A DNA stretch of 36,520 bases from Bacillota bacterium (lineage in GTDB: Bacteria > Bacillota_I > Bacilli_A > Izemoplasmatales > Hujiaoplasmataceae), in the NCBI GenBank assembly GCA_003245625.1, contig QKCT01000013.1:1-36520 (forward strand). The letters run 5' to 3'. A model generated the notes under the pieces. The model had not been told where the DNA came from. It saw only the letters and a list, made by a program, of their open reading frames with translations, and did not search any database. Shown here piece by piece: positions 166-17,982 of this stretch; position 1 is the first letter of the stretch, and the number at the start of each line of letters is the position of its first letter. The translations under genes and the position numbers were made by a program.

Positions 166-785
166 ACAATAAACCAGTTGTCATTGCAGTGGCTGGCGGA
201 TCGTCATCAGGGAAGACGACCGTAGTCAATAGTATTTTGGACCACTTGAAGGATTACAAAATCGTTGTAATACGACATGACGATTATTACAAGGATCAAA
301 GCGATATGACCATGGAACAGCGTAGGGAAGTCAATTATGACCACCCTTTTGCACTCGATAATGACCTCTTTTATGATCACATCAAAGAATTGATTTCAGG
401 CAAAAGCATCGAAAAGCCAACTTATGACTTTGTTCAGTTGACGAGAGCTGAAAAGACGGAAACGATCGAACCCGCCAAAATCATTATTATTGAAGGAATC
501 TTGGTATTGGAAGATGAGCGAGTACGCGATATCGCTGATATCAAACTATATGTAGAAGCAGATGAAGATTTACGTTTTATCCGTCGGCTTAAACGCGATA
601 CCCAAGAACGTGGTAGAACCATTGATTCTGTGATTAATCAGTACTTGGATACCGTTAAACCGATGCATTATGCATTCGTCAAACCGACCAAGCGATATGC
701 CGATATAATCATTCCAAATGATTACTCGCATGACGTTGCAGTCGATCTGATCAATGCCAAAATTATCACTATCTTAAACAAATAA
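162..785 (+). CDS. udk: Uridine/cytidine kinase
   Basis: Phosphorylates uridine and cytidine to UMP and CMP in the cytoplasmic pyrimidine salvage pathway. The P-loop GGSSSGKTT is at residues 12-20. It is followed by the family signature around residues 38-60 (HDDYYKD, then NYDHP) and by the RRLKRDTQERGR lid region. Length (207 aa) matches the family. The start is supported by AGGAGGG just upstream and overlaps the stop of the previous gene by four bases (ATGA), so the two are probably translated together. The greA gene follows after 42 bases containing its own promoter. The udk-greA order is also found in Bacillus. Confidence 0.95.
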   Translation: MNNKPVVIAVAGGSSSGKTTVVNSILDHLKDYKIVVIRHDDYYKDQSDMTMEQRREVNYDHPFALDNDLFYDHIKELISGKSIEKPTYDFVQLTRAEKTETIEPAKIIIIEGILVLEDERVRDIADIKLYVEADEDLRFIRRLKRDTQERGRTIDSVINQYLDTVKPMHYAFVKPTKRYADIIIPNDYSHDVAVDLINAKIITILNK

Positions 786-789
786 TATA

Positions 790-798
790 TGATATAAT
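790..798 (+). promoter_or_regulatory. Extended -10 promoter of greA
   Basis: TG at 790-791, one base, then a perfect TATAAT at 793-798. No good -35 hexamer is present at the right distance, which is typical of extended -10 promoters. Transcription should begin near 805, about 23 bases before the greA start. Confidence 0.6.
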
Positions 799-827
799 AA
801 ATTGTTTTTTATAAGGAGAAATGACAA

Positions 828-1310
828 ATGGAGAACAACTATCAATTAACCGAAGCCGGTTACGCTCAATTAAAAGAAGAACTAGAAGATCTCAAGGGCG
901 TCAAACGGTTTGAAAACTTAGAAGCGTTAAAAGAAGCGAGATCACAAGGTGACTTATCTGAAAACGCAGACTATGATGCAGCCAGAGACGAACAAGCAAG
1001 AATTGAAAGCCGCATCAAAGAAATCGAAAATATTCTAAAACATTCTGAAATCATCAAAGAAAACAGCCGTTCAAAAGTGATTGGTATCGGTAAAACCGTA
1101 ACCATCAATATCATCAAAGACGGTAAAACAATCATGGAAAACAAGGAATATATCATTGTAGGTAACCTTGAAGCAAATCCATTCCAAGGCAAGATTTCTA
1201 ATGAATCTCCTCTTGGAAAAGCATTGATTGGCAAGAAAAAAGGCAAATTGATCCCTTACAAAGCAGAAAACGGCCAGGAGATGTCAGTAGAAATCGTAGA
1301 CTTCAAATAA
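828..1310 (+). CDS. greA: Transcription elongation factor GreA
   Basis: Binds RNA polymerase in the secondary channel and stimulates cleavage of backtracked RNA. The N-terminal half is the long coiled coil (about residues 8-75) with the conserved tip SQGDLSENADYDAARDEQ carrying the acidic residues that act in the polymerase active site. The C-terminal half is the FKBP-like domain with SPLGKALIGKKKG near residues 127-139. Length (160 aa) is normal for the family. AAGGAGA lies 7-8 bases before the ATG. It has its own extended -10 promoter. mtnN and two more genes follow closely and may share the transcript. Confidence 0.96.
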   Translation: MENNYQLTEAGYAQLKEELEDLKGVKRFENLEALKEARSQGDLSENADYDAARDEQARIESRIKEIENILKHSEIIKENSRSKVIGIGKTVTINIIKDGKTIMENKEYIIVGNLEANPFQGKISNESPLGKALIGKKKGKLIPYKAENGQEMSVEIVDFK

Positions 1311-1329
1311 TGGTTCGGAGCGAATAACG

Positions 1330-2025
1330 ATGATTGGAATCATAGGGGCAATGGACAAAGAATTGTTATTGTACTTCCACGAGATGACAATCGAAAAAAC
1401 CGACATCTTTGGAGACAAAACATTCTACATCGGAACCCTTCACAACCATAAGGTCGTCCTTGCAAAATCCGGCATTGGCAAAGTCAATGCTGCAATTACA
1501 GCGACGATCATGATTTTAAACTATAACGTCAGAATGATACTGAACACAGGAATTGCCGGTGGATTGAGTCCGGTAAAGACAGGCGATATCGTCCTCGCAG
1601 AGGGAATCGCTTATTTTGATGTATCGTTGACTGAAATCGATGATGTCCCGTATGGTCAAATGGCAGATGATCCTTTGATTGTTAAGACAGATGCATCCTT
1701 ACTTCAAAAAGGCAGTGAAATCTGTGAAAAGCTTGGATATGAATTTCTACTCGGAAATCTTGTTTCCGGAGATCGTTTTGTAACGAAAACAAAAGACTTA
1801 CGCAAAATCATGCGAAACGTAGACAATATCCTAGGCGTTGAGATGGAAGGTATGGCAATCGCATTGACCGCTCATAAATTTCATATTCCGTTTATCTCCA
1901 TTCGCGGAGTATCCGATATCATCGATACCGAAGAACAAAGTGATGTCTATCACAATGCATCACAGGAAGTGGCAAACAAAACAACCCGTTTTGTATTCCA
2001 GTTCCTTGAGGGACTAAATGAATAA
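1330..2025 (+). CDS. mtnN: 5'-methylthioadenosine/S-adenosylhomocysteine nucleosidase
   Basis: Cleaves adenine from MTA and SAH, recycling by-products of polyamine synthesis, SAM-dependent methylation and autoinducer-2 formation. The family pattern is complete: MIGIIGAMDKE at the N-terminus with the catalytic acid, GIGKVNAA near residue 49, NTGIAGG near 75, VSGDRFV near 145, GVEMEGMA near 172 and RGVSDI near 193, whose Asp acts as the general acid. The 231-residue length is typical. A GGAG lies about 10 bases before the ATG, 19 bases after greA. The next gene begins inside its last eight bases. No luxS is seen in the window. Confidence 0.95.
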   Translation: MIGIIGAMDKELLLYFHEMTIEKTDIFGDKTFYIGTLHNHKVVLAKSGIGKVNAAITATIMILNYNVRMILNTGIAGGLSPVKTGDIVLAEGIAYFDVSLTEIDDVPYGQMADDPLIVKTDASLLQKGSEICEKLGYEFLLGNLVSGDRFVTKTKDLRKIMRNVDNILGVEMEGMAIALTAHKFHIPFISIRGVSDIIDTEEQSDVYHNASQEVANKTTRFVFQFLEGLNE

Positions 2026-2713
2026 GATTCGACTTGATAATAAGACATTTTATTATCAAGTTTTTTACAAAAACAACAAAAATATGTATCTTAGAATTCA
2101 AGGGAATGATCATTTGACAATCACTTGTAATCGTCGCGTCACAGCTTCTCAAATTGAAGATTTTATCCAAAAAAACTCTGACCGTATTTTAAAACATGCG
2201 GAGGCGATGAAAACCAAACAATCACTCTATTCGGAAGTTCAAATGGAACTGTTTGGAAAAACATTCCAAATCCTTTATTCCATCAAAGAACCGAAGGATT
2301 CTTATCAAGTATTCGACGAATATATTGAAATTTGTTTTCATAAAGATGATTTCGATCGTTCTTATCTCGAGCGAGTCTATGGAGAATTGATGTTAGAAAA
2401 GGTTTCTACATTAATGGTGGAATTAAAACCACAAATCAAAGCATTTTTCAATGTGGATAATATTGTTTTTAAATCTCAGTTGATGAAAAGTCGCTTTGGA
2501 AGCTGTATTCCTCAGCAACGGATCATCAAATTGAATTCGTTATTAGCTCGCTTTGATGAACGATACCTAAGAATGATATTGATACATGAATTGATTCACC
2601 TAAAAGTGTTTGACCATCAAGAAGAGTTTTATCTCTATATGGACGAATTACTTCCCAATTATAAACAACTCAAGAAAGAACTTGTACAAATCTCTAGAAA
2701 GTATGTGATTTAA
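2018..2713 (+). CDS. YgjP-like (DUF45) zinc metallopeptidase family protein
   Basis: Zincin-like protein of the YgjP/DUF45 family, usually annotated as M48-type metallopeptidase; the physiological substrate is not established. The metal site is H190-E-L-I-H194 with a probable third ligand H200 (FDHQEEF). It is preceded by the family motif RFGSC near residue 159, the counterpart of the usual SRWGSC. It has 231 aa and no signal peptide, so it is probably cytoplasmic. It overlaps mtnN by eight bases, with a GAGGGAC ribosome-binding site inside the mtnN end. The next gene starts on the last base of its stop codon, suggesting translational coupling. Confidence 0.8.
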   Translation: MNKIRLDNKTFYYQVFYKNNKNMYLRIQGNDHLTITCNRRVTASQIEDFIQKNSDRILKHAEAMKTKQSLYSEVQMELFGKTFQILYSIKEPKDSYQVFDEYIEICFHKDDFDRSYLERVYGELMLEKVSTLMVELKPQIKAFFNVDNIVFKSQLMKSRFGSCIPQQRIIKLNSLLARFDERYLRMILIHELIHLKVFDHQEEFYLYMDELLPNYKQLKKELVQISRKYVI

Positions 2714-4518
2714 TGGGCTTCTTGCCAATTACCAAGGCAGAAATGCTAGAACTTGGAATTCAACAACCAGATTTTGTTTTTGTCAGTGGTGACGCATATT
2801 GCGATCACCCTTCTTTTGGAACGGCCATTATTGCTAGAATCTTAGAAAGACATGGATATCAGGTTTGTATTTTGAGTCAACCAGACATCAACAAGCCAAA
2901 TGATTTCTTGGAATTTGGAAAACCAAAACTCGGTTGGTTGATTTCTTCGGGAAATATTGATTCGATGGTGAATCATTATACAGTGGCAATGAGAAAACGA
3001 ACAAAAGACTATTACACTCCGGGTGGAACGATGGGAAAACGTCCCGATCGAGCAGTGATACGATATAGCGAGGTTGTACGCAATATCGACCCCAATGCCA
3101 ATATTATTTTAGGTGGAGTCGAAAGTTCCTTGCGTCGCCTTGGACACTATGACTATTGGTCTGATAGTGTCCATAAAAGCATCCTTTTGGATGCGAACGC
3201 TAATATTTTAGTGTATGGTATGGGCGAACTGGCTATTGTGGAAATCGCTGATGCACTCGCATCTGGTTTACCAATGGAATACCTGACTTACCTCAAAGGA
3301 ACGGTTGTCAAAACCAAGAATCCCGATTTCATCCCAACAGATGCGATTTCTCTTCCCCGTTATGAACAAATCAAAAAAGATCGATTTGATTATGCGAAGA
3401 GTTTTATGATTCAATATCAAAATTCAGATGCTATCGTCGCAAAAACATTGGTAGAACAATATCAGGATACCTATGTAATTCAAAACCCACCGATGCGTCC
3501 TTTATCTGAATTTGAAATGGATGAAATCTATGATTTACCATTTATGCGAGCACCTCATCCTTTGTTAGAGAAACAGGGACATATCGCCGCTATGGACGAA
3601 ATCAAATTCTCCATTACCGCCAATCGTGGTTGTTTTGGAGGTTGTTCGTTTTGTGCTTTAACCTCTCATCAAGGACGAACCATTCAATCGCGTTCCAAAG
3701 ACTCTATTGTCAAAGAAGCAAAACAAATTATCTCTGATCCCGAGTTTAAAGGGTATATTCATGATGTTGGAGGACCCACCGCTAATTTTTATCGCAAAGC
3801 TTGCGATAAACAAGTGGAATATGGCGTCTGCGCAAATAAGTCTTGTATTGGTTATGAAACCTGTAAAAATCTTGTCGTTACTCACGAAGACTATCTCGAT
3901 GTCCTCCGCACTCTAAGAGAATTAGACGGAGTCAAAAAAGTATTCATTCGATCCGGAATACGGTATGATTATTTGATGTATGATAAAAAAGATGATTTCT
4001 TCAAGGAATTAATCGAACACCATATTTCTGGGCAGCTAAAAGTTGCACCGGAACATGTAAGTCCCGATGTTCTAAAAGCAATGGGGAAACCCACGAGAAA
4101 TCTCTATGATCGATTTGTCAAACGATATTACGAACTCAATGAAGAACTTGGAAAAAACCAATATCTTGTTCCATACCTGATGAGTTCTCATCCCGGATCT
4201 ACATTAAAAGATGCGATCATTTTGGCGGAGTATGTTCGCGATATGAATTACAATCCAGAACAAGTACAGGATTTCTATCCAACACCGCTGACGTTAGCCA
4301 CAACCATGTATCATACCGGACTCGATCCTAGAACAATGGAACCAATATATGTCGCGAAATCTAAACACGAAAAAGCGATGCAAAGGGCATTGATTCAATT
4401 TCGAAATCCAAAGAACTATGATTTGGTTTTTCAAGCCTTAATTCAGGCTGGAAGAAAAGATTTAATTGGGAATGGACAGCGTTGCTTAATCAAAGCCAAG
4501 CGCCCTATTCACCGCTAA
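2713..4518 (+). CDS. YgiQ family radical SAM protein
   Basis: Radical SAM enzyme of the YgiQ family (function unknown) with 601 aa. The N-terminal part (about 1-290) holds the cobalamin-binding-like region typical of YgiQ, including ILGGVESSLRR near residue 136. The iron-sulfur motif is C307-xxx-C311-xx-C314, followed by GRTIQSRS. A second cysteine group (near residues 358-390, CDKQ, CANKSC, ETCK) is also a YgiQ feature. The ending QRCLIKAKRPIHR appears complete, though some family members have a longer tail. It overlaps the previous stop codon by one base and lacks a clear ribosome-binding site, so reinitiation is likely. Confidence 0.88.
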   Translation: MGFLPITKAEMLELGIQQPDFVFVSGDAYCDHPSFGTAIIARILERHGYQVCILSQPDINKPNDFLEFGKPKLGWLISSGNIDSMVNHYTVAMRKRTKDYYTPGGTMGKRPDRAVIRYSEVVRNIDPNANIILGGVESSLRRLGHYDYWSDSVHKSILLDANANILVYGMGELAIVEIADALASGLPMEYLTYLKGTVVKTKNPDFIPTDAISLPRYEQIKKDRFDYAKSFMIQYQNSDAIVAKTLVEQYQDTYVIQNPPMRPLSEFEMDEIYDLPFMRAPHPLLEKQGHIAAMDEIKFSITANRGCFGGCSFCALTSHQGRTIQSRSKDSIVKEAKQIISDPEFKGYIHDVGGPTANFYRKACDKQVEYGVCANKSCIGYETCKNLVVTHEDYLDVLRTLRELDGVKKVFIRSGIRYDYLMYDKKDDFFKELIEHHISGQLKVAPEHVSPDVLKAMGKPTRNLYDRFVKRYYELNEELGKNQYLVPYLMSSHPGSTLKDAIILAEYVRDMNYNPEQVQDFYPTPLTLATTMYHTGLDPRTMEPIYVAKSKHEKAMQRALIQFRNPKNYDLVFQALIQAGRKDLIGNGQRCLIKAKRPIHR

Positions 4519-5210: not shown

Positions 5211-6329
5211 ATGAAGGAAGTCTTTTGCAAGGGGTGCGGCGCAAAGATACAGACAGCGGATTCAACTCAACCGGGTTTTATCAGTGAAAACATGTTGGGA
5301 TCGTTCAAACCATCGAACATGATTTGCCAACGATGCTTTCGAATCCGACATTATAATGAAGTTTATCCTTACACCGTGTCAAACACTGACTACTTGAAAG
5401 TCATTGAGAAAATTAAAGAAGAAGACGCCTTAATCGTAAAAATCGTAGATATCTTCGATTTTTCCGGTTCTTTTGTTCCGGCAATCAAGACCTTAACAGG
5501 AAATCAGGATGTTATCTTGGTTGGAAACAAAATGGACCTCTTACCAAAAAATGTCAAACCGAAAAAAATTATTAACTGGTTGAAAATTATGTTGGCTGCT
5601 CAAGGATTTACCGTCTTGAATTCGATTCTTGTTTCATCGAAATACGGAGATAATTTTGACCAATTAATGGAAATGATCAATCGTTATAAAGGCAAACGAA
5701 ATGTATATATCGTTGGTTGTTCTAACGTGGGAAAATCCAAATTGGTCAACCAAATTTTGAAACGATACCTTGGCGAACCGGCCGATGTTTTGACGGTTTC
5801 CACATCCCCTCAAACCACCATTGGTTTGATTGGATTCCCGTTGCTCGATGGTTCCATCATTTACGATACCCCTGGTGTTATAAACAAACACCAATACATG
5901 CACTATTTAACTCGCTCCTCCTACAAATTGACTGTACCAAAAAAGGAAATCAAACCTTTGGTTTTCCAGTTATTTGAAGGACAAACCCTGTATTTTGGAG
6001 GTCTTGCAAGACTTGATATCATCAGTGGTGAAACAGGGGACAAGATTTCGGTTATTACCTTCTTTGCGAACACATTGAATATTCATCGAACCAAAACCGC
6101 TCGAGCAGATGAACTCTATCGAGAAAAACTATACACCTTGTTATCGCCGCCATTCTCACCGGATGAAGATGTCCCGAAATGGGTGTATCACGAATTCCGT
6201 ATTCGCGATAATCAAAAATATGACATCGTATTTTCCGGTCTAGGATTTGTCACCTTACGAGCTCCGTTCCACATTCGCGCTTACGCTCCTTTTGTGGTTG
6301 GCGTATATACTAGATTGGCCATTATATGA
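5211..6329 (+). CDS. yqeH: Ribosome biogenesis GTPase YqeH
   Basis: Circularly permuted GTPase needed for 30S ribosomal subunit assembly. An N-terminal zinc knuckle is formed by C6, C9, C39 and C42. The G motifs come in the permuted order: G4 NKMD at 106-109, G5-like SSKYG near 142, G1 GCSNVGKS at 169-176, then G3 DTPG at 219-222. The C-terminal part contains the family-specific RNA-binding region. Length is 372 aa, as usual. It starts two bases after the yqeG stop (GAAGAGGTAAC before the ATG) and overlaps yqeK by four bases. In Bacillus, aroE, yhbY and nadD lie between yqeH and yqeK; they are absent here. Confidence 0.96.
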   Translation: MKEVFCKGCGAKIQTADSTQPGFISENMLGSFKPSNMICQRCFRIRHYNEVYPYTVSNTDYLKVIEKIKEEDALIVKIVDIFDFSGSFVPAIKTLTGNQDVILVGNKMDLLPKNVKPKKIINWLKIMLAAQGFTVLNSILVSSKYGDNFDQLMEMINRYKGKRNVYIVGCSNVGKSKLVNQILKRYLGEPADVLTVSTSPQTTIGLIGFPLLDGSIIYDTPGVINKHQYMHYLTRSSYKLTVPKKEIKPLVFQLFEGQTLYFGGLARLDIISGETGDKISVITFFANTLNIHRTKTARADELYREKLYTLLSPPFSPDEDVPKWVYHEFRIRDNQKYDIVFSGLGFVTLRAPFHIRAYAPFVVGVYTRLAII

Positions 6330-6904
6330 TCGATGCATCCTTGATTCAAAGAATTGAAGTTTATCTGAAGGATCATTTTGAAGAGGATTCATATCGTTTT
6401 CGACACATTTATCAAATGAAACAAGTCGCAATCACATTGGGTGAGTTGTATCAGGAAGAAATTACCAATGTTATTGTGGCTTCTTATTTACATGACGCTA
6501 CAAAATATATGTCTTTGGAAGAAAACATTGCTTACGCAAGTAAGATTTTGACAAAGCCTGTTCTACCTGCTTGTGCACATGCTTATGCGGCAAAACGTTT
6601 AGCGCAAGAAGTATTTGGTATTGAACAGGAAGACATCTTGAATGCTATTCAATATCATTGTTCTGGTCGAAAAGCAATGTCATTATTAGAAAAGATTATC
6701 TACCTAAGTGACTATATCGAAGAAAGCAGAACCTTTGTAAAAGAGGAATTGCGCCAACTGGCAAAAGTGGATTTGGACAAAGCGGTATTGACCGCTATGA
6801 TCGAAATCAAAGAGTATTTAGAAGACACGAATCAACCCGTCTCAAATCTGACGATCGAGGCGATAACCTATTATCAAAAAGAATTGGAGGAATCGAATGG
6901 CTAA
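6326..6904 (+). CDS. yqeK: HD-domain bis(5'-nucleosyl)-tetraphosphatase YqeK
   Basis: HD-domain hydrolase of the YqeK family, known to split diadenosine tetraphosphate symmetrically into two ADP. Metal-binding residues are visible as RHIYQM near residue 27, the HD pair in YLHDATKYM near residues 55-56, AHAYAA near 83, YHCSG near 111 and the downstream Asp in IIYLSDYIEESR near 129. It has 192 aa and only the HD domain; in many mollicutes it is fused to NadD, which is not the case here. ATGA overlap with yqeH and no separate Shine-Dalgarno suggest coupled translation. Confidence 0.92.
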   Translation: MIDASLIQRIEVYLKDHFEEDSYRFRHIYQMKQVAITLGELYQEEITNVIVASYLHDATKYMSLEENIAYASKILTKPVLPACAHAYAAKRLAQEVFGIEQEDILNAIQYHCSGRKAMSLLEKIIYLSDYIEESRTFVKEELRQLAKVDLDKAVLTAMIEIKEYLEDTNQPVSNLTIEAITYYQKELEESNG

Positions 6905-7241
6905 TTTGATTCATACTGTTTACCAAGCATTAAGTGACCTAAAATTGACGGATATCATAATCTATGATTTTCGTGGTCATTCTCCGTATTATGACTATCA
7001 AGTCATCGCCTCTGCTAGTAATGAGCGTCAGGTGAATGCGGCGATCAATCACATCAAACAAGCATTGCCGGAAGGCTATGATTTTCATATTGAAGGACAA
7101 GAAACCAGTCGCTGGATATTAATCGACTTACATGAAGTGATCATCCATGTTATGCACAAGGAAGATCGAGAATTCTACCAAATCGAAAAAATCTTCTATG
7201 AGCGCGAAACCATTTCCTTGGAGGAAACCAATGGAATATGA
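6897..7241 (+). CDS. rsfS: Ribosomal silencing factor RsfS
   Basis: Binds ribosomal protein uL14 on the 50S subunit and prevents subunit joining when nutrients are scarce. The 114-residue sequence has the family pattern: LTDIIIYDFRGHSPYYDYQVIASASNERQ-type core, then GQETSRWILIDLHEVIIHVM and the C-terminal REFYQIEKIF. GGAGG lies seven bases before the ATG, inside the end of yqeK (eight-base overlap). Its own last bases overlap the start of the methyltransferase gene. Position after yqeK is conserved in Firmicutes. Confidence 0.94.
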   Translation: MANLIHTVYQALSDLKLTDIIIYDFRGHSPYYDYQVIASASNERQVNAAINHIKQALPEGYDFHIEGQETSRWILIDLHEVIIHVMHKEDREFYQIEKIFYERETISLEETNGI

Positions 7242-7926
7242 TTTGTTAGCGACGTTTTATGATTCTTTTATCGATCCTGAAGTCTATGAGGAATACATCA
7301 AGCTGATCAATGAGTATACCTCGATCGGAACGGTGTTGGATATTGGCTGTGGTACTGGGACGCTATCAATCGAGATGGCGAAAGCCGGGTACGATGTTGT
7401 CGCAACAGATTTATCCGAAGAAATGTTGCAGATAGTCAGTTATCGAGCAAAAGAAGAAGATGTTGAACTTGAAATAGCATTATATGATATGCTTGATCCT
7501 ATCGAATTTTTATTCGATACAATTATTGCATCAATGGATGTCATCAATCATTTGACAGATTTGGAAGATGTGGAATTTGGATTCACAAACATCTATAATT
7601 CACTAAAACCTAACGGTATTTTTATATTTGATGTCTTGTCCGCTGAGTATATCGATGCACTAGACGGATACAAAGAAACCGATGAAGAATATCATTTTTC
7701 ATGGGAATCCGTGAAAGGGGATAAACCTCACAGTATCCTTCACACGATTAAAGTCAATGTCGAAGGGCAAGAAGAAGTCTCTACCATTTATGAAGTGACT
7801 CATGATTTCTCTGAATATGAAAGAATCTTTGAAAAAGTCGGATTTACGACCTTGGAAAAAGTCGTTTTACCAGAACGCACCATCTATGTTCTGCACAAAG
7901 AAGAAGTGAAACCGCAATCATTGTGA
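7231..7926 (+). CDS. yqeM: YqeM-like class I SAM-dependent methyltransferase
   Basis: Probable cytoplasmic methyltransferase; the substrate is unknown. Motif I VLDIGCGTGTLS lies at about residues 33-44, followed by the acidic ribose-binding position in VVATDLSEEM and the post-motif SMDVINHL. ATG 7231 is chosen because GGAGG sits at 7220-7224 with a six-base spacer. An in-frame start 84 bases upstream would lie deep inside rsfS and adds a lysine-rich stretch unlike the family. Length is then 231 aa. It closes the operon; its TGA lies in the loop of the terminator at 7909-7940. Order and family match Bacillus yqeM. Confidence 0.88.
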   Translation: MEYDLLATFYDSFIDPEVYEEYIKLINEYTSIGTVLDIGCGTGTLSIEMAKAGYDVVATDLSEEMLQIVSYRAKEEDVELEIALYDMLDPIEFLFDTIIASMDVINHLTDLEDVEFGFTNIYNSLKPNGIFIFDVLSAEYIDALDGYKETDEEYHFSWESVKGDKPHSILHTIKVNVEGQEEVSTIYEVTHDFSEYERIFEKVGFTTLEKVVLPERTIYVLHKEEVKPQSL

Positions 7927-7940
7927 TTTGCGGTTTTTTT
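7909..7940 (+). terminator. Terminator of the yqeG-yqeM operon
   Basis: Perfect nine-base stem AAACCGCAA (7909-7917) with TTGCGGTTT (7928-7936), ten-base loop, followed by a T-run to 7941. The yqeM stop codon is in the loop. Confidence 0.9.
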
Positions 7941-7952
7941 TGAGCATATTTT

Positions 7953-7981
7953 TTGGGAATTTCACGGTAATTTGGTAAAAT
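7953..7981 (+). promoter_or_regulatory. Promoter of ldh
   Basis: -35 TTGGGA at 7953-7958, a 17-base spacer and -10 TAAAAT at 7976-7981 with an extended TG at 7973-7974. It lies 17 bases after the preceding terminator stem. Confidence 0.72.
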
Positions 7982-8005
7982 ATACGCGAAGGGAGTGAAG
8001 AGAAT

Positions 8006-8950
8006 ATGCAATCAAGTAAAGTTGTAATTATCGGAACAGGACTCGTTGGAATGAGTTACGCCTACTCTTTGGTGAACCAAGGAGCGGTAGAAGAGCTCGT
8101 ATTAATCGACATAAACAAAGACAAAGCGATTGGGGAATCTATGGACCTCAACCACGGCTTGGCGTTTTCCCCACGGAAAATGAAGATTTACGCAGGTGAA
8201 TTTTCCGACTGTAAAGATGCTAATCTAGTTGTTATCACAGCTGGAGTAAATCAAAAAGAAGGCGAAACAAGAATTCACTTGTTGAACCGAAACGCACAAA
8301 TTATGAAATCCGTCGTCAAGAATGTTATGGATTCAGGATTTGACGGAATCTTTTTGGTCGCAACCAATCCTGTGGACATTCTATCCTACGTTGTTTGGAA
8401 AGAATCAGGATTGCCATCCAGTCGAGTAATTGGTAGTGGAACCTCTTTGGATACCGCAAGACTTCGCTATGAGATTTCATCCAAATTAAACATCTCGGTG
8501 CGTAATATTCATGCCTATATATTGGGAGAACACGGCGATTCAGAATTCGTCTGTTGGTCTAACGCATATGTTGGAGCGAAACCAATTATGGATGTCATCG
8601 AAGATATGAGTGAAATTGGCTTTGAAGATTTGGAGCAAATTTATCTGAACGTCAAGAACGCGGCGTATGAAATTATCAAAAAGAAGAATGCGACTTATTA
8701 TGCGATTGGTATCGCATTGGTTCGCATCACCTTAGCGATCCTAAACAACGAAAATCGTATCTTACCGTTGTCGGTTCTAAATGATGGTGTCTACCAAATC
8801 GAAAAGGATGTTTATATCGGTTTACCGGCAGTTGTCAATAAAGATGGAATTCACCATGTAGTCAAAATGAAATTGACTGCGGAAGAAATGGTCAAACTCA
8901 ATCGTTCCGCGAATCTTTTGAAGTCCCATCTCAACGAAATGGATATCTAA
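8006..8950 (+). CDS. ldh: L-lactate dehydrogenase
   Basis: Reduces pyruvate to L-lactate with NADH, regenerating NAD+ in fermentation. The Rossmann motif GTGLVGMSYA is at residues 10-19 and DINKDKA binds the ribose. The substrate loop reads NQKEGETR, whose Gln marks lactate rather than malate dehydrogenase. The catalytic His is H176 in LGEHGDSE, and the substrate-binding Arg is in the DTARLRYE region. Length 314 aa is typical. GAAGGGAGTGA precedes the ATG. It has its own promoter and terminator, so it is monocistronic. It separates the yqe operon from the comE genes, an insertion relative to Bacillus. Confidence 0.96.
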   Translation: MQSSKVVIIGTGLVGMSYAYSLVNQGAVEELVLIDINKDKAIGESMDLNHGLAFSPRKMKIYAGEFSDCKDANLVVITAGVNQKEGETRIHLLNRNAQIMKSVVKNVMDSGFDGIFLVATNPVDILSYVVWKESGLPSSRVIGSGTSLDTARLRYEISSKLNISVRNIHAYILGEHGDSEFVCWSNAYVGAKPIMDVIEDMSEIGFEDLEQIYLNVKNAAYEIIKKKNATYYAIGIALVRITLAILNNENRILPLSVLNDGVYQIEKDVYIGLPAVVNKDGIHHVVKMKLTAEEMVKLNRSANLLKSHLNEMDI

Positions 8951-8959
8951 AAAACCATA

Positions 8960-8989
8960 AATAGTCACCATCTGGTGGCTATTTTTTTT
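8960..8989 (+). terminator. Terminator of ldh
   Basis: Eleven-base stem AATAGTCACCA (8960-8970) with TGGTGGCTATT (8973-8983), containing one G-U pair, a two-base loop as drawn, and a run of eight T. Confidence 0.92.
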
Positions 8990-9042
8990 ATCCGAAAAGA
9001 AAACGATTATCATCCTTGTACTATGTAATCGAGGTGATAAAA

Positions 9043-10044
9043 ATGGAATGGATCAAAAAGAACAAAGGATTTTTGTTATTGCTGATTGGAATTGTAGGAT
9101 TGATCGCTATGAATGTGGAATGGCCAACAGAGTCCGAACAAGTTGCTTTAGAATATGCGCAGGACTTAGTCGCAACTATAGAACAAACAGAATCTTCTTC
9201 TGATGTGGTTGTCGAAATCAAAGGTGAAGTAATGTATCCCGGTATATTCGAGGTAGAAGATGGTTTGCGGGTTGGAGATATCATAGCTCTTGCTGGAGGA
9301 TTGACATCGGATGCAGATACTTCCGGGATTAATCAAGCGGCTAAGATTACGGATGAGATGATAATCTATATTCCCAAAATAACCACAACTCAAACCGTTG
9401 ATGCATCGATAGTACGTATCGTTGTCGAAATCAAAGGAGAAGTGAAGTATCCCGGTGTTTATTCGCTGTATTCAACTTCTAGAGTAATGGATTTGATTGA
9501 GGAAGCTGGAGGCGTGAAAGACACGGCAGATTTGACAAATGTCGATTTAGCTGCTCGACTAGTCGATGGTAGTTCCATCGTGATTCCTAAAATAGAAGCA
9601 ACGCAAGAAGAAACTGAAGAAACAACCAATATCCAAATTCGCTATATCTATGTGGAAATCCTTGGGGAAGTGATTCGCCCAGGAACTTATTATATTCCAG
9701 AAGATTATAATCTGAAAGATCTAATCTATGATGCTGGAGGAGTCACTACTGAATGCGATCTTTCCAAAGTCGATTGGGATGTTGTATTGGTATTAGGGGC
9801 AACCATCTATATTCCTTCCTATGATGATGAAATAACGCAAGTGGATGAATCTGGTTTCATCAATATCAATACAGCTTCCGTTGAAACGTTGATCACTCTT
9901 CCTGGAATTGGTAATATCTTAGCACAACGAATCATTGATTATCGCGCTGAAAACGGAAACTTTCAATCCATCGAAGAAATTATGAATGTGTCTGGAATCA
10001 AAACCAGCGTATATGAGCAGATTAAAGAACTTATTACAGTCTGA
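9043..10044 (+). CDS. comEA: ComEA-like DNA receptor with three SLBB domains and a helix-hairpin-helix end
   Basis: Membrane-anchored competence DNA receptor. A short cytoplasmic start (MEWIKKNKG) is followed by one membrane helix (about residues 9-25). Three consecutive SLBB-type domains follow at about 55-111, 124-185 and 200-262, each beginning VE-I-x-GEV-xx-PG and containing AGG. The C-terminus (about 272-333) is the (HhH)2 DNA-binding unit, INTAS then LPGIGNILAQRIIDYR. Usual ComEA has one SLBB domain, so 333 aa is long. ATG 9043 is chosen because GAGGTGAT lies just before it; an in-frame start 27 bases earlier has no such site. No clear promoter is visible. It overlaps comEC. Confidence 0.88.
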   Translation: MEWIKKNKGFLLLLIGIVGLIAMNVEWPTESEQVALEYAQDLVATIEQTESSSDVVVEIKGEVMYPGIFEVEDGLRVGDIIALAGGLTSDADTSGINQAAKITDEMIIYIPKITTTQTVDASIVRIVVEIKGEVKYPGVYSLYSTSRVMDLIEEAGGVKDTADLTNVDLAARLVDGSSIVIPKIEATQEETEETTNIQIRYIYVEILGEVIRPGTYYIPEDYNLKDLIYDAGGVTTECDLSKVDWDVVLVLGATIYIPSYDDEITQVDESGFININTASVETLITLPGIGNILAQRIIDYRAENGNFQSIEEIMNVSGIKTSVYEQIKELITV

Positions 10045-13188: not shown

Positions 13189-13449
13189 TTATAGACTGTT
13201 GACTTTATACGATAAACGAGCTTTTTGTCTATTGGCGTAATTTTTATGATGTACTCCCTTAGCGACAGCTTTGTCTAATTTCTTATAAGCCAAACTTAGG
13301 TTCTCAATTGCTTTTTCTTTGTCGTTGTTTGCGACAGCAGCTTCTACACTTTTGAGCGCTGTTTTCAAAGAAGACTTAAAAGAAGCATTCGCTTGACGAC
13401 GCTTTTCGTTTTGTAGATTACGTTTGATTTGTTGTTTGTTGTTTGCCAT
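13189..13449 (-). CDS. rpsT: 30S ribosomal protein S20
   Basis: Small-subunit protein that binds 16S rRNA. The 86-residue sequence shows the standard pattern: MANNKQQIKRNLQNEKRRQAN at the start, basic helices, then KAVAKGVHHKNYANRQKARLSYKVN at the end. GGAGGTG lies seven bases before the ATG on the minus strand. It has a strong promoter of its own and a shared terminator with convergent holA. It is divergent from the GH65-like gene. Confidence 0.97.
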   Translation of the reverse strand: MANNKQQIKRNLQNEKRRQANASFKSSLKTALKSVEAAVANNDKEKAIENLSLAYKKLDKAVAKGVHHKNYANRQKARLSYKVNSL

Positions 13450-13563: not shown

Positions 13564-13581
13564 AAAAAGGTTGACCTTTTT
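13564..13581. repeat. Inverted repeat over the -35 of the GH65-like promoter, possible operator
   Basis: AAAAAGGT and ACCTTTTT are perfect eight-base arms around a two-base centre (TG). No gene is transcribed into it, since rpsT reads away on the minus strand and the GH65-like gene starts downstream. A terminator role is therefore unlikely and a protein-binding site is the simplest reading. Confidence 0.5.
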
Positions 13582-13599
13582 GAAAAAAACATAGATAAT
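13571..13599 (+). promoter_or_regulatory. Candidate promoter of the GH65-like gene
   Basis: -35 TTGACC at 13571-13576, 17-base spacer, -10 GATAAT at 13594-13599. The -35 lies inside an inverted repeat (13564-13581), so access may be controlled. AT-rich TATTATATAG further downstream is an alternative -10. Confidence 0.5.
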
Positions 13600-13639
13600 A
13601 TTATTGATATGTATTATATAGTGTATTAGGGGTGACGTC

Positions 13640-15745
13640 ATGGCTTTGCTGGAACACAAGGGATATAAACGCTCCGAACAGAATTTGGTAGGGACAAAAT
13701 TCCTTATCAGTAATGGGTATTTGGGCTATCGTGGAACATTGGATGAAGCAGATTCATCCGATTTTGTTGCGCTTAATCTCAATGGTGTTTATGACGGAAA
13801 TATCGATTGTGAATCCATCAATGCTTATAATCCACTCTATATCATGGTGAAAGCCGACGGAATCAATTTAAATCCAAAATCTTTTCGACCAAAAAAACAT
13901 GTTATTTCGCTAGATACATCCACTGGTGTATTTCGTAGACACAGTGAATTTAAATATGGAAATATTGAAATCTCGCTAAAAAGCGAGCGTTTTGTCGATC
14001 AAACCAATAAGAACATGATCTACACTCGCTTCATGTTTAAATCGAACAAAGAAACAGAAGTCGAAATCTACAGCGGGATCGACACCTTTATCTGGAACCT
14101 AAACGATATGCATCTTAAAGATGACCTTATTACCAAAGAAGACGACTTGATTTTGATACATTCGAAAACCAAGCGTCAAGAAAAAGATGTGATCGTTGGG
14201 GTTATCGAAGAGCGCAACTTTGAAGTCAATGATATGTCTAAAACCAAAAGTATCTCGAAATTCAAGATGACACTTCGACCTGACAAAGTTTATACCGTAT
14301 TCAAATATGCCGGTGTAATTCATTCTAATCCAAACGGAATCGAAGTACTAAAATCTCAATTGCAACAAGCAAAAGAACTCGGCTTCAAGAAATTGTACCA
14401 ACAAAACGATGAGTTTTGGTCGAAGGTATATGAAATTGGCAGTGTTGATGTTTATAACAACGACAAAGCTAAGGAGCAAGTCGAATATGCTGTATATCAA
14501 CTAATTGCTCATCGTCCATATAACGATTATACCTCTGTTCCTCAAATGGGGTTATCCGGTCAATATGGCTATGGAGCCGTAAGTTGGAATGCAGAGCTGA
14601 TGATCTTACCGTATTTCATCAACACCGATACCATCAGTGCCAGAAGGATGGTTATGTATCGGGTACATGGATTGGAAGAAGCGAAAAAACGCGCGAAAGA
14701 ATATGGCTATGATGGAGCCTTATATCCGGTTTTGTCCGGACAAAACGGGATTGAACTTGACCCCAAAGAAATCGAGAATATGGTTCATATCAATGGATCC
14801 ATCATTTATGGTGTGTACCAATATATAGAACGAACTGCGGATTACTCGGTTCTATTCGAAGGAGCATTGGAAATGCTTCTTGAAATGTGCCGTTTCTACT
14901 TGTCATACGCGACTCTCAGTGACAATCAAAAACATTATGATTTCTTGCGGGTTCGCGGAATCGATACATCTCACGGAAAGTTGGATAACGAGGTTTATAC
15001 CAACAAAGTGATCGACAACGCTCTTGATGCCTTAATCAAATGTGTCGCTTTTGCAAAACAAACAGATAAAGCAGAAGTGAAAACCATGTTCGATGCCAAA
15101 AACTATGAAGATTTAATCAAAGATCTTCGAGAATTGCGCAGAAGACTTTATACGAAGAAAGAAAACATCGAGTATTTGGTGGAAGCCTTTGACGGTTATT
15201 TCGGTCTTCCAGACGATAAAATATCTCAATTAAAGCGAATCCGTTATTTAGAAACCGATCGATCCGTGAATTACAAAGAGACATCCTTTGTTCAAAATTC
15301 AAGTGTTTTGATTACTCTAGCGATGTTTCGTGAGGACTTCCCGGATAAAGTACATCGAACTTGCTACGACTATTATATGAGACGATCCGTGAATCCGGAT
15401 TATTTAGCAAAGGTTATGTACATCATCGAAGGATGTGAAAGTAATCTTCCAGAAGATGCTTTGGACTATTATACTAGTTTAGGGGATTTGGATATCAAAA
15501 ATACCAATTTATTCAAAAATGGTCTGAATATCGGATTGCTAGGTGGATTGTATTTGGCAATGGTTTATGGCTTCGCCGGGGTAAGGCATCATGTCTACTT
15601 GGTTTCTGCGGATTATCATATTCCACCTAACATTCGCCGCATCGAATGCAAGCTACGAGTCGTCGACAATATTGCCTACGTAAAAGTGAAACGTAATAGT
15701 GCCAGTGCTAAATGGACGGAAACCGACGATGATGACGATGATTGA
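13640..15745 (+). CDS. GH65-like (disaccharide phosphorylase fold) protein lacking catalytic residues
   Basis: Its collinear match is to glycoside hydrolase family 65, which phosphorolyses maltose, kojibiose or similar glucosides. N-terminal beta-sandwich (about 1-250, GTKFLISNGYLGYRGTLDEAD) is followed by the (alpha/alpha)6 barrel (about 290-660). The active-site loop, GPDE-F/Y-HE in family members, reads GIDTSHG here with T443 in place of the catalytic Glu, although the flanking DN-xx-YTN is kept. FWDTE reads SWNAE (N317), and the phosphate-site EGIH-type motif reads KNGLNIG (N630). The C-terminus ends in six Asp. 701 aa, somewhat short. No beta-phosphoglucomutase is adjacent. AGGGGTGA precedes the ATG. 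Probably a non-phosphorylase or pseudoenzyme. Confidence 0.8.
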   Translation: MALLEHKGYKRSEQNLVGTKFLISNGYLGYRGTLDEADSSDFVALNLNGVYDGNIDCESINAYNPLYIMVKADGINLNPKSFRPKKHVISLDTSTGVFRRHSEFKYGNIEISLKSERFVDQTNKNMIYTRFMFKSNKETEVEIYSGIDTFIWNLNDMHLKDDLITKEDDLILIHSKTKRQEKDVIVGVIEERNFEVNDMSKTKSISKFKMTLRPDKVYTVFKYAGVIHSNPNGIEVLKSQLQQAKELGFKKLYQQNDEFWSKVYEIGSVDVYNNDKAKEQVEYAVYQLIAHRPYNDYTSVPQMGLSGQYGYGAVSWNAELMILPYFINTDTISARRMVMYRVHGLEEAKKRAKEYGYDGALYPVLSGQNGIELDPKEIENMVHINGSIIYGVYQYIERTADYSVLFEGALEMLLEMCRFYLSYATLSDNQKHYDFLRVRGIDTSHGKLDNEVYTNKVIDNALDALIKCVAFAKQTDKAEVKTMFDAKNYEDLIKDLRELRRRLYTKKENIEYLVEAFDGYFGLPDDKISQLKRIRYLETDRSVNYKETSFVQNSSVLITLAMFREDFPDKVHRTCYDYYMRRSVNPDYLAKVMYIIEGCESNLPEDALDYYTSLGDLDIKNTNLFKNGLNIGLLGGLYLAMVYGFAGVRHHVYLVSADYHIPPNIRRIECKLRVVDNIAYVKVKRNSASAKWTETDDDDDD

Positions 15746-15819: not shown

Positions 15820-16110
15820 ATGAAAAACAAAAGTGCTATCGCAATTATCTTGATCGTACTTGGTGCGTTATTATTATTGAATGCTTTTGGATGGTTGAAC
15901 TTTAATCCATTCTTTAATGGCTGGTGGACTCTGTTCCTCATCATTCCAGCGTTAATTTCCATGTCTCGAACAGGGGTCACAGTTGGAAATGCCGTGTTAT
16001 TAGTTTTAGGGATTGGCTTCCTATTACAAGAAAACGGCTGGGACTTTAAAGGATACATTGTACCGGCGATCTTCATCGCAATCGGTATCGGAATCCTTGT
16101 AAAGAAATAA
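15820..16110 (+). CDS. Small LiaI/LiaF-like (DUF5668-type) membrane protein
   Basis: A 96-residue protein made almost wholly of hydrophobic segments: about residues 7-22, 33-46, 57-69 and 77-93, i.e. four short membrane helices. The pattern IILIVLGALLLLNAFGWLNF, then WWTLFLIIPALIS, matches the N-terminal membrane region of LiaF-type envelope-stress proteins, without their cytoplasmic or DUF2154 part. AGGAGGATATT precedes the ATG. It lies 74 bases after the GH65-like gene, with a possible -10 TAAAAT at 15782-15787. Its stop overlaps the next start by one base. Confidence 0.75.
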   Translation: MKNKSAIAIILIVLGALLLLNAFGWLNFNPFFNGWWTLFLIIPALISMSRTGVTVGNAVLLVLGIGFLLQENGWDFKGYIVPAIFIAIGIGILVKK

Positions 16111-16481
16111 TGTGCCTTTTTTGCGATAAATACAAACAACAAGAAAACATCGTCTATGAAAATGAGACGATGTTTGTCATTTATGATTCCTATCCAGTAA
16201 CAAAAGGACATTGTCTAATTATTCCCAAACGGCATATTCCTGATTACTTTGCGATGAATCCAACCGAATTAGTCGATATGGACGCTGCTATCATCGAAAT
16301 GAAAATTCGTTTGGATCATCAAATTCATCCAGATGGATATAATATTGGCATCAACAATGGCGAAGCTGCAGGTCAAACCATCATGCATTTACATGTTCAT
16401 TTGATTCCAAGAACCCATGGAGATATGGAACATCCACGTGGAGGAGTTCGTGGTGTCATCCCAGAAAAACAATCCTATTAG
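16110..16481 (+). CDS. HIT family nucleotide hydrolase/transferase
   Basis: Histidine-triad protein of 123 aa, likely acting on dinucleoside polyphosphates or AMP-lysine-type conjugates. The N-terminal CLFC resembles the zinc-site cysteines of many HIT proteins. IIPKRHIPDY near residue 40, the nucleotide-binding NNGEAAGQTIMH near 80-90 and the triad HLHVHLIP near 90-97 are all present, followed by RGGVRGVIPEKQSY. It overlaps the previous stop codon by one base without a visible Shine-Dalgarno, suggesting coupling to the LiaF-like gene. A terminator follows. Confidence 0.93.
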   Translation: MCLFCDKYKQQENIVYENETMFVIYDSYPVTKGHCLIIPKRHIPDYFAMNPTELVDMDAAIIEMKIRLDHQIHPDGYNIGINNGEAAGQTIMHLHVHLIPRTHGDMEHPRGGVRGVIPEKQSY

Positions 16482-16563: not shown

Positions 16564-17982
16564 ATGAAACGAAAAACAAAAATTATATGCACCATTGGAC
16601 CGGCAACCGACTCACCAGAAATGATCGACAAAATTATCGATGCCGGAATGAATGTTGCCAGACTAAACTTCTCCCATGGTACAAGGGATGAACATAAAGC
16701 CAGAATCGATATGATTCGTAAGATTAGTGAAGAGAAAAACCGTTTTATCGGAATTATGGCTGATACCAAAGGTCCAGAAATCCGTACAGGAATGTTTGAA
16801 AACAATCTAGCTACTTTTGCGAAAGGTGATTTGGTGGAAGTGGTTAGAGAAGAAGTCTTGGGAAACCACGAGCGGTTCCATATCTCAGCACCAGAGTTAT
16901 TTGACGATATCGAGATTGGTGATTATTTACTCATTGATGATGGGAAAATGCGTCTCGATGTGGTCGCCAAACGAAACGATTCTTTCACCTGTAAAATTTT
17001 CAATCCGGGCGTGATCAAGAGTCGTAAAGGTGTTAATGTACCGAATGTCAAACTCTCTATGCCGTTCATCTCAGCGAAAGACGATGAGGATTTACGTTTT
17101 GCTGCTAGAGAACATGTTGATTTGATTGCATTATCTTTCGTGAGAAGAAAAGAAGATGTTCAAGCAGTACGAAAGATCTTAAAAGAAGAAGGCAATCCAA
17201 CCATTGAATTGATTGCGAAGATCGAAAATCAAGAAGGGGTGGACAACCTCGATGAGATTTTAAAAGTTGTCGATGGAATCATGGTTGCTCGTGGAGACCT
17301 TGGTGTGGAAGTTTCCACTCAATTTGTCCCGATTTATCAAAAGAAAATTATTGCGAAAGCTAATGAAGCTGGAAAACCTGTTATCACCGCAACACATATG
17401 TTGGAATCGATGATTACTTCACCAAGACCGACTCGTGCCGAAGCTAGTGATGTGGCGAACGCAATTTTGGATGGCTCTGATGCCATTATGTTATCCGGAG
17501 AAACAGCTGCTGGAAATTATCCAGTTGAAGCAGTATTAACAATGGATACGATTGCCAAGGCAATTGAAGATACAATTCCGTATGAGGCTCGTTTAGAGAA
17601 AGCAATCCAATCAAGTTCACATACAGTCAACGATGCGATTGGAATTGCAGTAAGTCAAGCTGTGATGACACTACCAAAAGCAGAAGTCATCATCGCTTTC
17701 ACAGAAACCGGTGGTACTGCAAAACGGATGTGTAAATTCCGCCCATCCAAACCAATCATTGCGATTACGGAAAGTGTAGAAACATGCCGTAAACTTTCTT
17801 ATTACTGGGGAGTGTTTGCTGCAAAAGTAGATAATATTAATAATTTTGAATCTCATGACCCAGTTGCGATGGAAGTTGCCAGAGATTTTGGTTTCCAAAA
17901 AGGAGCCACACTCGTGTTGACTTCTGGTTGGGGTCAAAAACATGGAAAGACCAACACCATGCGAATCATTGATTTAGAATAA
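16564..17982 (+). CDS. pyk: Pyruvate kinase
   Basis: Converts phosphoenolpyruvate and ADP to pyruvate and ATP, the last step of glycolysis. It begins KTKIICTIGPATDSPEMI and NVARLNFSHG, has the MADTKGPEIRTG ADP/metal region near residue 65, the active-site segment IELIAKIENQEGVDNLDEI with the catalytic Lys near 220, and MVARGDLGVE near 240. The C-terminal allosteric domain is complete, but the extra PEP-utiliser-like domain of Bacillus pyruvate kinase is absent (472 aa). ATG 16564 follows AAGGAGGCAATT; the open frame extends 45 bases further up but across the promoter. It is monocistronic. Confidence 0.97.
   Translation: MKRKTKIICTIGPATDSPEMIDKIIDAGMNVARLNFSHGTRDEHKARIDMIRKISEEKNRFIGIMADTKGPEIRTGMFENNLATFAKGDLVEVVREEVLGNHERFHISAPELFDDIEIGDYLLIDDGKMRLDVVAKRNDSFTCKIFNPGVIKSRKGVNVPNVKLSMPFISAKDDEDLRFAAREHVDLIALSFVRRKEDVQAVRKILKEEGNPTIELIAKIENQEGVDNLDEILKVVDGIMVARGDLGVEVSTQFVPIYQKKIIAKANEAGKPVITATHMLESMITSPRPTRAEASDVANAILDGSDAIMLSGETAAGNYPVEAVLTMDTIAKAIEDTIPYEARLEKAIQSSSHTVNDAIGIAVSQAVMTLPKAEVIIAFTETGGTAKRMCKFRPSKPIIAITESVETCRKLSYYWGVFAAKVDNINNFESHDPVAMEVARDFGFQKGATLVLTSGWGQKHGKTNTMRIIDLE

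Follow-up and report, generated by a model that had tools for sequence, protein, structure and literature searches.

A GH65 phosphorylase homologue with a dismantled active site is kept under purifying selection, with constraint shifted to its C-terminal domain

The window analysed here, a stretch of 36,520 nucleotides from a bacterium of the phylum Bacillota, carries a gene whose product is collinear in sequence with GH65 phosphorylases and lacks the residues on which GH65 catalysis depends. The protein is best explained as a neofunctionalised pseudoenzyme, a reading to which we assign a probability of about three in four: the GH65 scaffold would have been kept, and the protein would now serve in non-catalytic binding, chiefly through its C-terminal β-sheet domain. 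The gene and the signals in front of it are:

13571..13599, forward strand: sigma-70-like site TTGACC-17-GATAAT, matching 10 of 12 consensus positions (motif scan)
13628..13635, forward strand: Shine–Dalgarno-like AGGGGTGA, 5′ of the ATG (read from the sequence)
13640..15745, forward strand: GH65 pseudoenzyme gene, ATG at 13640, TGA ending at 15745, 701 amino acids

The initial annotation of a GH65-like open reading frame at this position was borne out. The family profiles of both the N-terminal and the central domain matched the 701-residue protein over their cut-offs (Pfam PF03636, GH65N, E 2e-29; PF03632, GH65m, E 2e-47), and its top PDB matches were the solved GH65 phosphorylases 4ktr/4ktp, 3wiq, 6w0p, and 1h54. 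In sequence alignment the protein is collinear with GH65s, by which it would have their layout of β-sandwich, helical linker, (α/α)6 barrel, and C-terminal β-sheet; the structure predicted from the window protein and three relatives was too poor (pLDDT 39.8) to serve for fold comparison. This gene is the sole GH65 of the source genome (1.85 Mb in 118 contigs, about 90% complete). The promoter and ribosome-binding site had also been described as functional-looking. Both sequences are present, but the region contains 16 promoter-like sites versus 16.7 in shuffled sequences, that is, such sites occur at chance frequency.

The active site was compared with nine published GH65 positions (PMC8626586), which were located by alignment with four solved phosphorylases. 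These positions are the general acid Glu, the Trp, Asp, Lys, and Gln of subsite −1, and the Lys, two Ser, and His that form the phosphate site in GH65 phosphorylases (PMC8626586). The alignment showed that eight of the nine are replaced in the window protein, with W316 alone being kept:

14546..14548, forward strand: codon of M303, replacing the phosphate-site Lys/Arg (alignment and spacing from the acid)
14588..14590, forward strand: codon of N317, replacing the subsite −1 Asp of FWDTE (alignment)
14966..14968, forward strand: codon of T443, replacing the general-acid Glu of GPDE (alignment)
15293..15298, forward strand: codons of Q552-N553, replacing the subsite −1 Lys-Gln of KQxD (alignment)
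15398..15403, forward strand: codons of D587-Y588, replacing the two phosphate-binding Ser (alignment)
15527..15529, forward strand: codon of N630, replacing the phosphate-site His of EGIH (alignment)

The substitutions at T443, N317, and N630, from which the initial annotation had concluded that all three active-site elements are altered, are real and align unambiguously with the solved phosphorylases; that conclusion understated the change, as M303, Q552, N553, D587, and Y588 have to be added. The alternative general base Glu of GH65 hydrolases was sought in residues 608–633, near the end of the barrel, where no Glu is present; with T443 at the place of the general acid, the protein has neither Glu of the hydrolase pair. 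In the GH65 enzyme FjGH65A, the E472Q substitution left less than 0.1% of the activity (PMC8626586). By alignment, the window protein combines a homologous fold with the loss of essential catalytic residues, as expected for a pseudoenzyme, and it is probably catalytically inactive.

Relatives were searched in 34 genomes from 11 genera (coded g1–g11) of the same taxonomic family. GH65s were present in 32 of these genomes; their loci were fetched, the proteins were extracted and aligned, and a tree was built. The window protein groups with other dismantled GH65s, from its own genus g1 and from g6 and g11, in one clade (SH-aLRT 100), which is nested among the intact-looking GH65s of the family. 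Each of the 14 aligned clade members has Asn or Asp in place of His630, and 12 of them have lost the general acid. The two exceptions are G004, which retains both E443 and D317, and G031, which has Glu at position 443; the phosphate site is gone in both. As to the homologs sharing GIDT, for which a search had been proposed, the loss of the acid is mostly common to the clade, but the exact Thr is limited to the window genome, with Asn at this position already in G003 (81% amino acid identity) and in G002. Six consecutive Asp residues (15725–15742) form the C terminus of the window protein, as in G003 but in no other clade member. A second pair of dismantled GH65s (G007, L062, and G016, L065) occupies the same syntenic site, lacks the C-terminal signature described below, and has long branches and an unsure placement. 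No relatives were detected in the viral contigs scanned or in a first scan of genome contigs, and a search of 296 genomes across the class with a profile of the C-terminal tail gave no match outside the family at E 1e-10.

The active-site replacements vary between clade members, as is expected once catalysis is unselected, and β-phosphoglucomutase was lost alongside, both of which would suit a gene that is decaying and has yet to accumulate frameshifts and stops. However, the frames are open across three genera, down to about 25% identity, and each of the 16 genomes sampled from g1, g6, and g11 carries a clade member, at 98–120 bits with the tail profile; the next-best match, at 77 bits, is the intact-looking GH65 of G006. 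The intact GH65 paralogues are patchy (6 of the same 16 genomes). Between G031 and G033 dN is 0.025 and dS 0.482. The window gene and its G003 counterpart differ with a dN of 0.15 and saturated dS, their codons being identical at 89% of second positions versus 47% of third positions, and their 81% protein identity is in the range of the neighbouring HIT (77%), LiaF-like (80%), and pyk (92%) products. These data show that purifying selection maintains the dismantled GH65. With dN/dS low where measurable and a near-invariant tail motif, decay is a highly improbable explanation.

The order of genes at the locus is conserved in the family as comEC, holA, rpsT (reverse), GH65, LiaF-like, HIT, and pyk, with variable insertions of a PAS/GAF/GGDEF/EAL protein upstream and of β-phosphoglucomutase, pseudouridine synthase, and BipA genes downstream. 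In the window the neighbours are:

13192..13449, reverse strand: rpsT (ribosomal protein S20), conserved divergent neighbour (Pfam and synteny)
15820..16110, forward strand: LiaF-type small membrane protein; this neighbourhood is conserved in g1 and in most g6 genomes (synteny)
16110..16481, forward strand: HIT-domain protein, conserved neighbour (Pfam and synteny)
16564..17982, forward strand: pyk (pyruvate kinase), conserved neighbour (Pfam and synteny)

An open reading frame of about 1,340–1,390 amino acids lies between rpsT and the GH65 gene in several genera (L035, L037, L040, L065) and is absent from the window genus; the copies in L035 and L065 are the PAS/GAF/GGDEF/EAL protein. Elsewhere in the window, 9016–10044 encodes a ComEA-like protein, in which the helix–hairpin–helix end is preceded by what appear to be three polysaccharide-export (SLBB-type) profile repeats. 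Genus g11 lacks the LiaF-like and HIT genes, and there pyk starts 9–14 bp after the stop codon of the pseudoenzyme gene, which could suggest that the gene is retained only to avoid disturbing expression of the downstream pyk operon. On the other hand, three g6 members (G028, G031, and G033) close the gene with a terminator-like hairpin of its own, and therefore neither a general operon partnership with pyk, which we ruled out, nor polarity explains the retention. Polar effects would also not conserve a particular amino-acid motif, and this explanation is as improbable as decay.

β-Phosphoglucomutase is required for β-glucose 1-phosphate to enter glycolysis. It is this sugar phosphate that GH65 phosphorylases release (PMC8950772). 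The mutase was scored with TIGR01990 at a cut-off of 189.4 bits, and no canonical β-phosphoglucomutase was found in the source genome at its completeness of about 90%, the best HAD matches reaching 28.5 and 23 bits. In a comparison of genomes that are mostly draft MAGs, the mutase exceeded the cut-off in none of the 12 genomes whose GH65s are all dismantled versus 15 of the 17 genomes that have an intact-looking GH65 (Fisher p = 1.8e-6, which overstates independence because the genomes are related). The tally was made by hand; it counts as present a G014 gene truncated at a contig edge, treats the GPDD-type GH65 of G012 as intact-looking, and leaves out G005, G018, G019, G026, and G029 as ambiguous. 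Two of the pseudoenzyme-only genomes without the mutase, G021 and G027, are closed single contigs, and therefore an assembly gap is an unlikely reason for its absence. In G003 and G001 a mutase gene lies directly downstream of the dismantled GH65. Taking this as a sign of activity was rejected, because both genomes have a second, intact-looking GH65 elsewhere. Together with the presence in 16 of 16 genomes at one syntenic site, the open frames, and the purifying selection, the lack of the mutase in pseudoenzyme-only genomes supports the earlier proposal of a retained non-phosphorylase role rather than decay.

The two genomes with an intact-looking GH65 and no mutase are G006 and G012. The GH65 of the latter (L036, 6473–8653, reverse strand) is otherwise intact and has GPDD in place of GPDE, the putative general acid being Asp. 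With canonical β-phosphoglucomutase missing from the genome, this GH65 is possibly an intermediate. Several other arrangements were observed in the family. GH65 and β-phosphoglucomutase are fused in one open frame of about 944 amino acids in L040 (G011, 6451–9282) and L044 (G024, 319–3147). In L038 (G025), L045 (G014, the truncated mutase gene), L043 (G015), L046 (G034), and L047 (G060), two different GH65 genes lie in tandem beside a β-phosphoglucomutase gene; the product of one is related to kojibiose phosphorylase 6W0P, and that of the other belongs to the wider subclade of the window protein. The g2 GH65s in L048 (G005) and L053 (G015, 5535–8717) keep the general acid and have altered phosphate-site motifs, RTERGTP and GTY in place of RT-H-SS and GxH, and they are possibly hydrolases or another loss in progress.

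The distribution of constraint along the protein is inverted in the dismantled clade, with the barrel loosened and the C-terminal sheet tightened. Identity between genera among intact GH65s is 0.60 in residues 276–400, 0.46 in residues 471–650, and 0.35 in residues 658–692, while the corresponding values in the dismantled clade are 0.25–0.34 and 0.19–0.28 for the barrel and 0.42–0.54 for the tail. Within the 43-residue C-terminal domain, 7 of 30 invariant columns of the clade are found, versus 0 of 80 in the intact relatives (hypergeometric p = 0.0015). The signature of the clade in this domain is:

15611..15715, forward strand: C-terminal β-sheet signature, residues 658–692, almost invariant across the inactive clade, variable among intact relatives (alignment)

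The signature, with the pattern D-x3-P-x3-RR-x-E ... K-x-[KR]-RNS, consists of D658, P662, R666, R667, E669, K682, K684, R685, N686, S687, A688, and W692. Partial forms of the motif occur in intact relatives (VKVRRNSVEIKW in G006), and therefore the signature may reflect a structural preference at the level of the clade with no new function. The weak model (pLDDT 39.8) has the strand order 667–674, 677–684, and 687–694, by which the basic residues of the signature would cluster at one end of an antiparallel sheet. The PDB search with the tail profile gave matches at chance level only. A basic charge of the whole protein was dropped as a sign of nucleic-acid binding, as the isoelectric points of clade members extend from 5.3 to 9.5.

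The roles that had been suggested for the protein differ in how well they fit. A sugar sensor, in which the old pocket still binds an alpha-glucoside or glucose and signals to a partner, could be consistent with the retention of W316, E319, H383, D442, H445, and N450 in the g1 pocket and with the neighbouring pyruvate kinase gene, which follows directly in g11. However, three of the four subsite −1 residues (D317, K552, and Q553) are replaced, and for this reason sensing through the old sugar pocket is unlikely; moreover, the Trp/Asp loop is substituted or deleted in g6 and g11, so that a function common to the clade cannot rest on the pocket. Hence the sugar-binding sensor of the initial annotation is weakened, while its alternative of a scaffold, or other binding, fits better. 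Its third suggestion, a new reaction, would mean an active site re-invented in the same barrel. In its favour, no clade member varies at D401 or N450, and position 443 is still acidic in G004 and G031. However, D401 is the only acidic barrel residue invariant in the clade and is invariant in intact relatives as well, and so it is probably structural. For this reason, and with the barrel being the region that lost constraint, a new catalyst is even less likely than a sensor.

The preferred reading, that of a GH65 scaffold kept for binding, would begin with a GH65 alpha-glucoside phosphorylase at the rpsT–pyk site. The general acid, the phosphate site, and subsite −1 would have been lost in the common ancestor of the three genera, and the mutase for the phosphorylase product wherever no other GH65 remained. 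The fold would have been retained as a scaffold, and the part now selected may be a non-catalytic binding surface, chiefly the C-terminal β-sheet domain, on which R666-R667 and K682-x-K684-R685-N686-S687 would meet at one end of the sheet and bind a partner, be it a protein, a nucleic acid, or another anion. The C-terminal domain would thus make the protein a binding, scaffold, or regulatory protein. A bolder version, which is speculative and which we consider doubtful, is that in the three genera a carbohydrate phosphorylase became, at its original locus, a core regulator without enzymatic function, with the C-terminal sheet as a conserved basic docking surface (RR-x-E ... K-x-[KR]-RNS) for nucleic acid or a partner from central metabolism, possibly pyruvate kinase, whose gene lies nearby.

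Automatic annotation would label this gene as a GH65 phosphorylase and credit the host with an alpha-glucoside metabolism that it apparently lacks. The locus presents a natural series, from intact GH65 with mutase, through intact GH65 with a partial tail motif and inactive GH65 with mutase, to inactive GH65 alone, which makes it possible to ask whether a new function arose before or after the old one was lost. To our knowledge, few bacterial pseudo-glycosidases have been described, and our search of the open-access literature found no GH65 pseudoenzyme.

The window protein is homologous to GH65 inverting phosphorylases, such as maltose phosphorylase (1H54), kojibiose phosphorylase (3WIQ), and glucosylglycerol phosphorylase (4KTP), over the N-domain, linker, and barrel, and it is nested in the GH65 tree. 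Unlike these enzymes, it has no general acid (T443), no phosphate site (M303, D587, Y588, and N630), and of subsite −1 only W316 next to the changed N317, Q552, and N553, and its genome has no β-phosphoglucomutase. GH65 hydrolases do not have the Lys/Ser-Ser/His phosphate site (PMC8626586), and its absence is shared by the window protein with FjGH65A, fungal acid trehalase, and PGGHG; FjGH65A even has Met in place of the phosphate-site Lys, as does the window protein at M303. On the other hand, the general acid Glu and subsite −1 are retained in the hydrolases, which have a general base Glu in addition; in the window protein neither Glu is present, and subsite −1 has lost three of its four residues. 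Pseudoenzymes are already known as a kind, and what is new here is one in GH65 and in a bacterial group where we found none described. Beetle polygalacturonase homologues are reported to have lost catalytic residues with the gene retained (PMC6549527), and fungal pseudonucleases to have lost theirs and become RNA-binding proteins (PMC8097288). The window clade resembles both in that catalysis was lost and the gene kept, and differs from both in that it replaces the enzyme at its original locus in a bacterial lineage.
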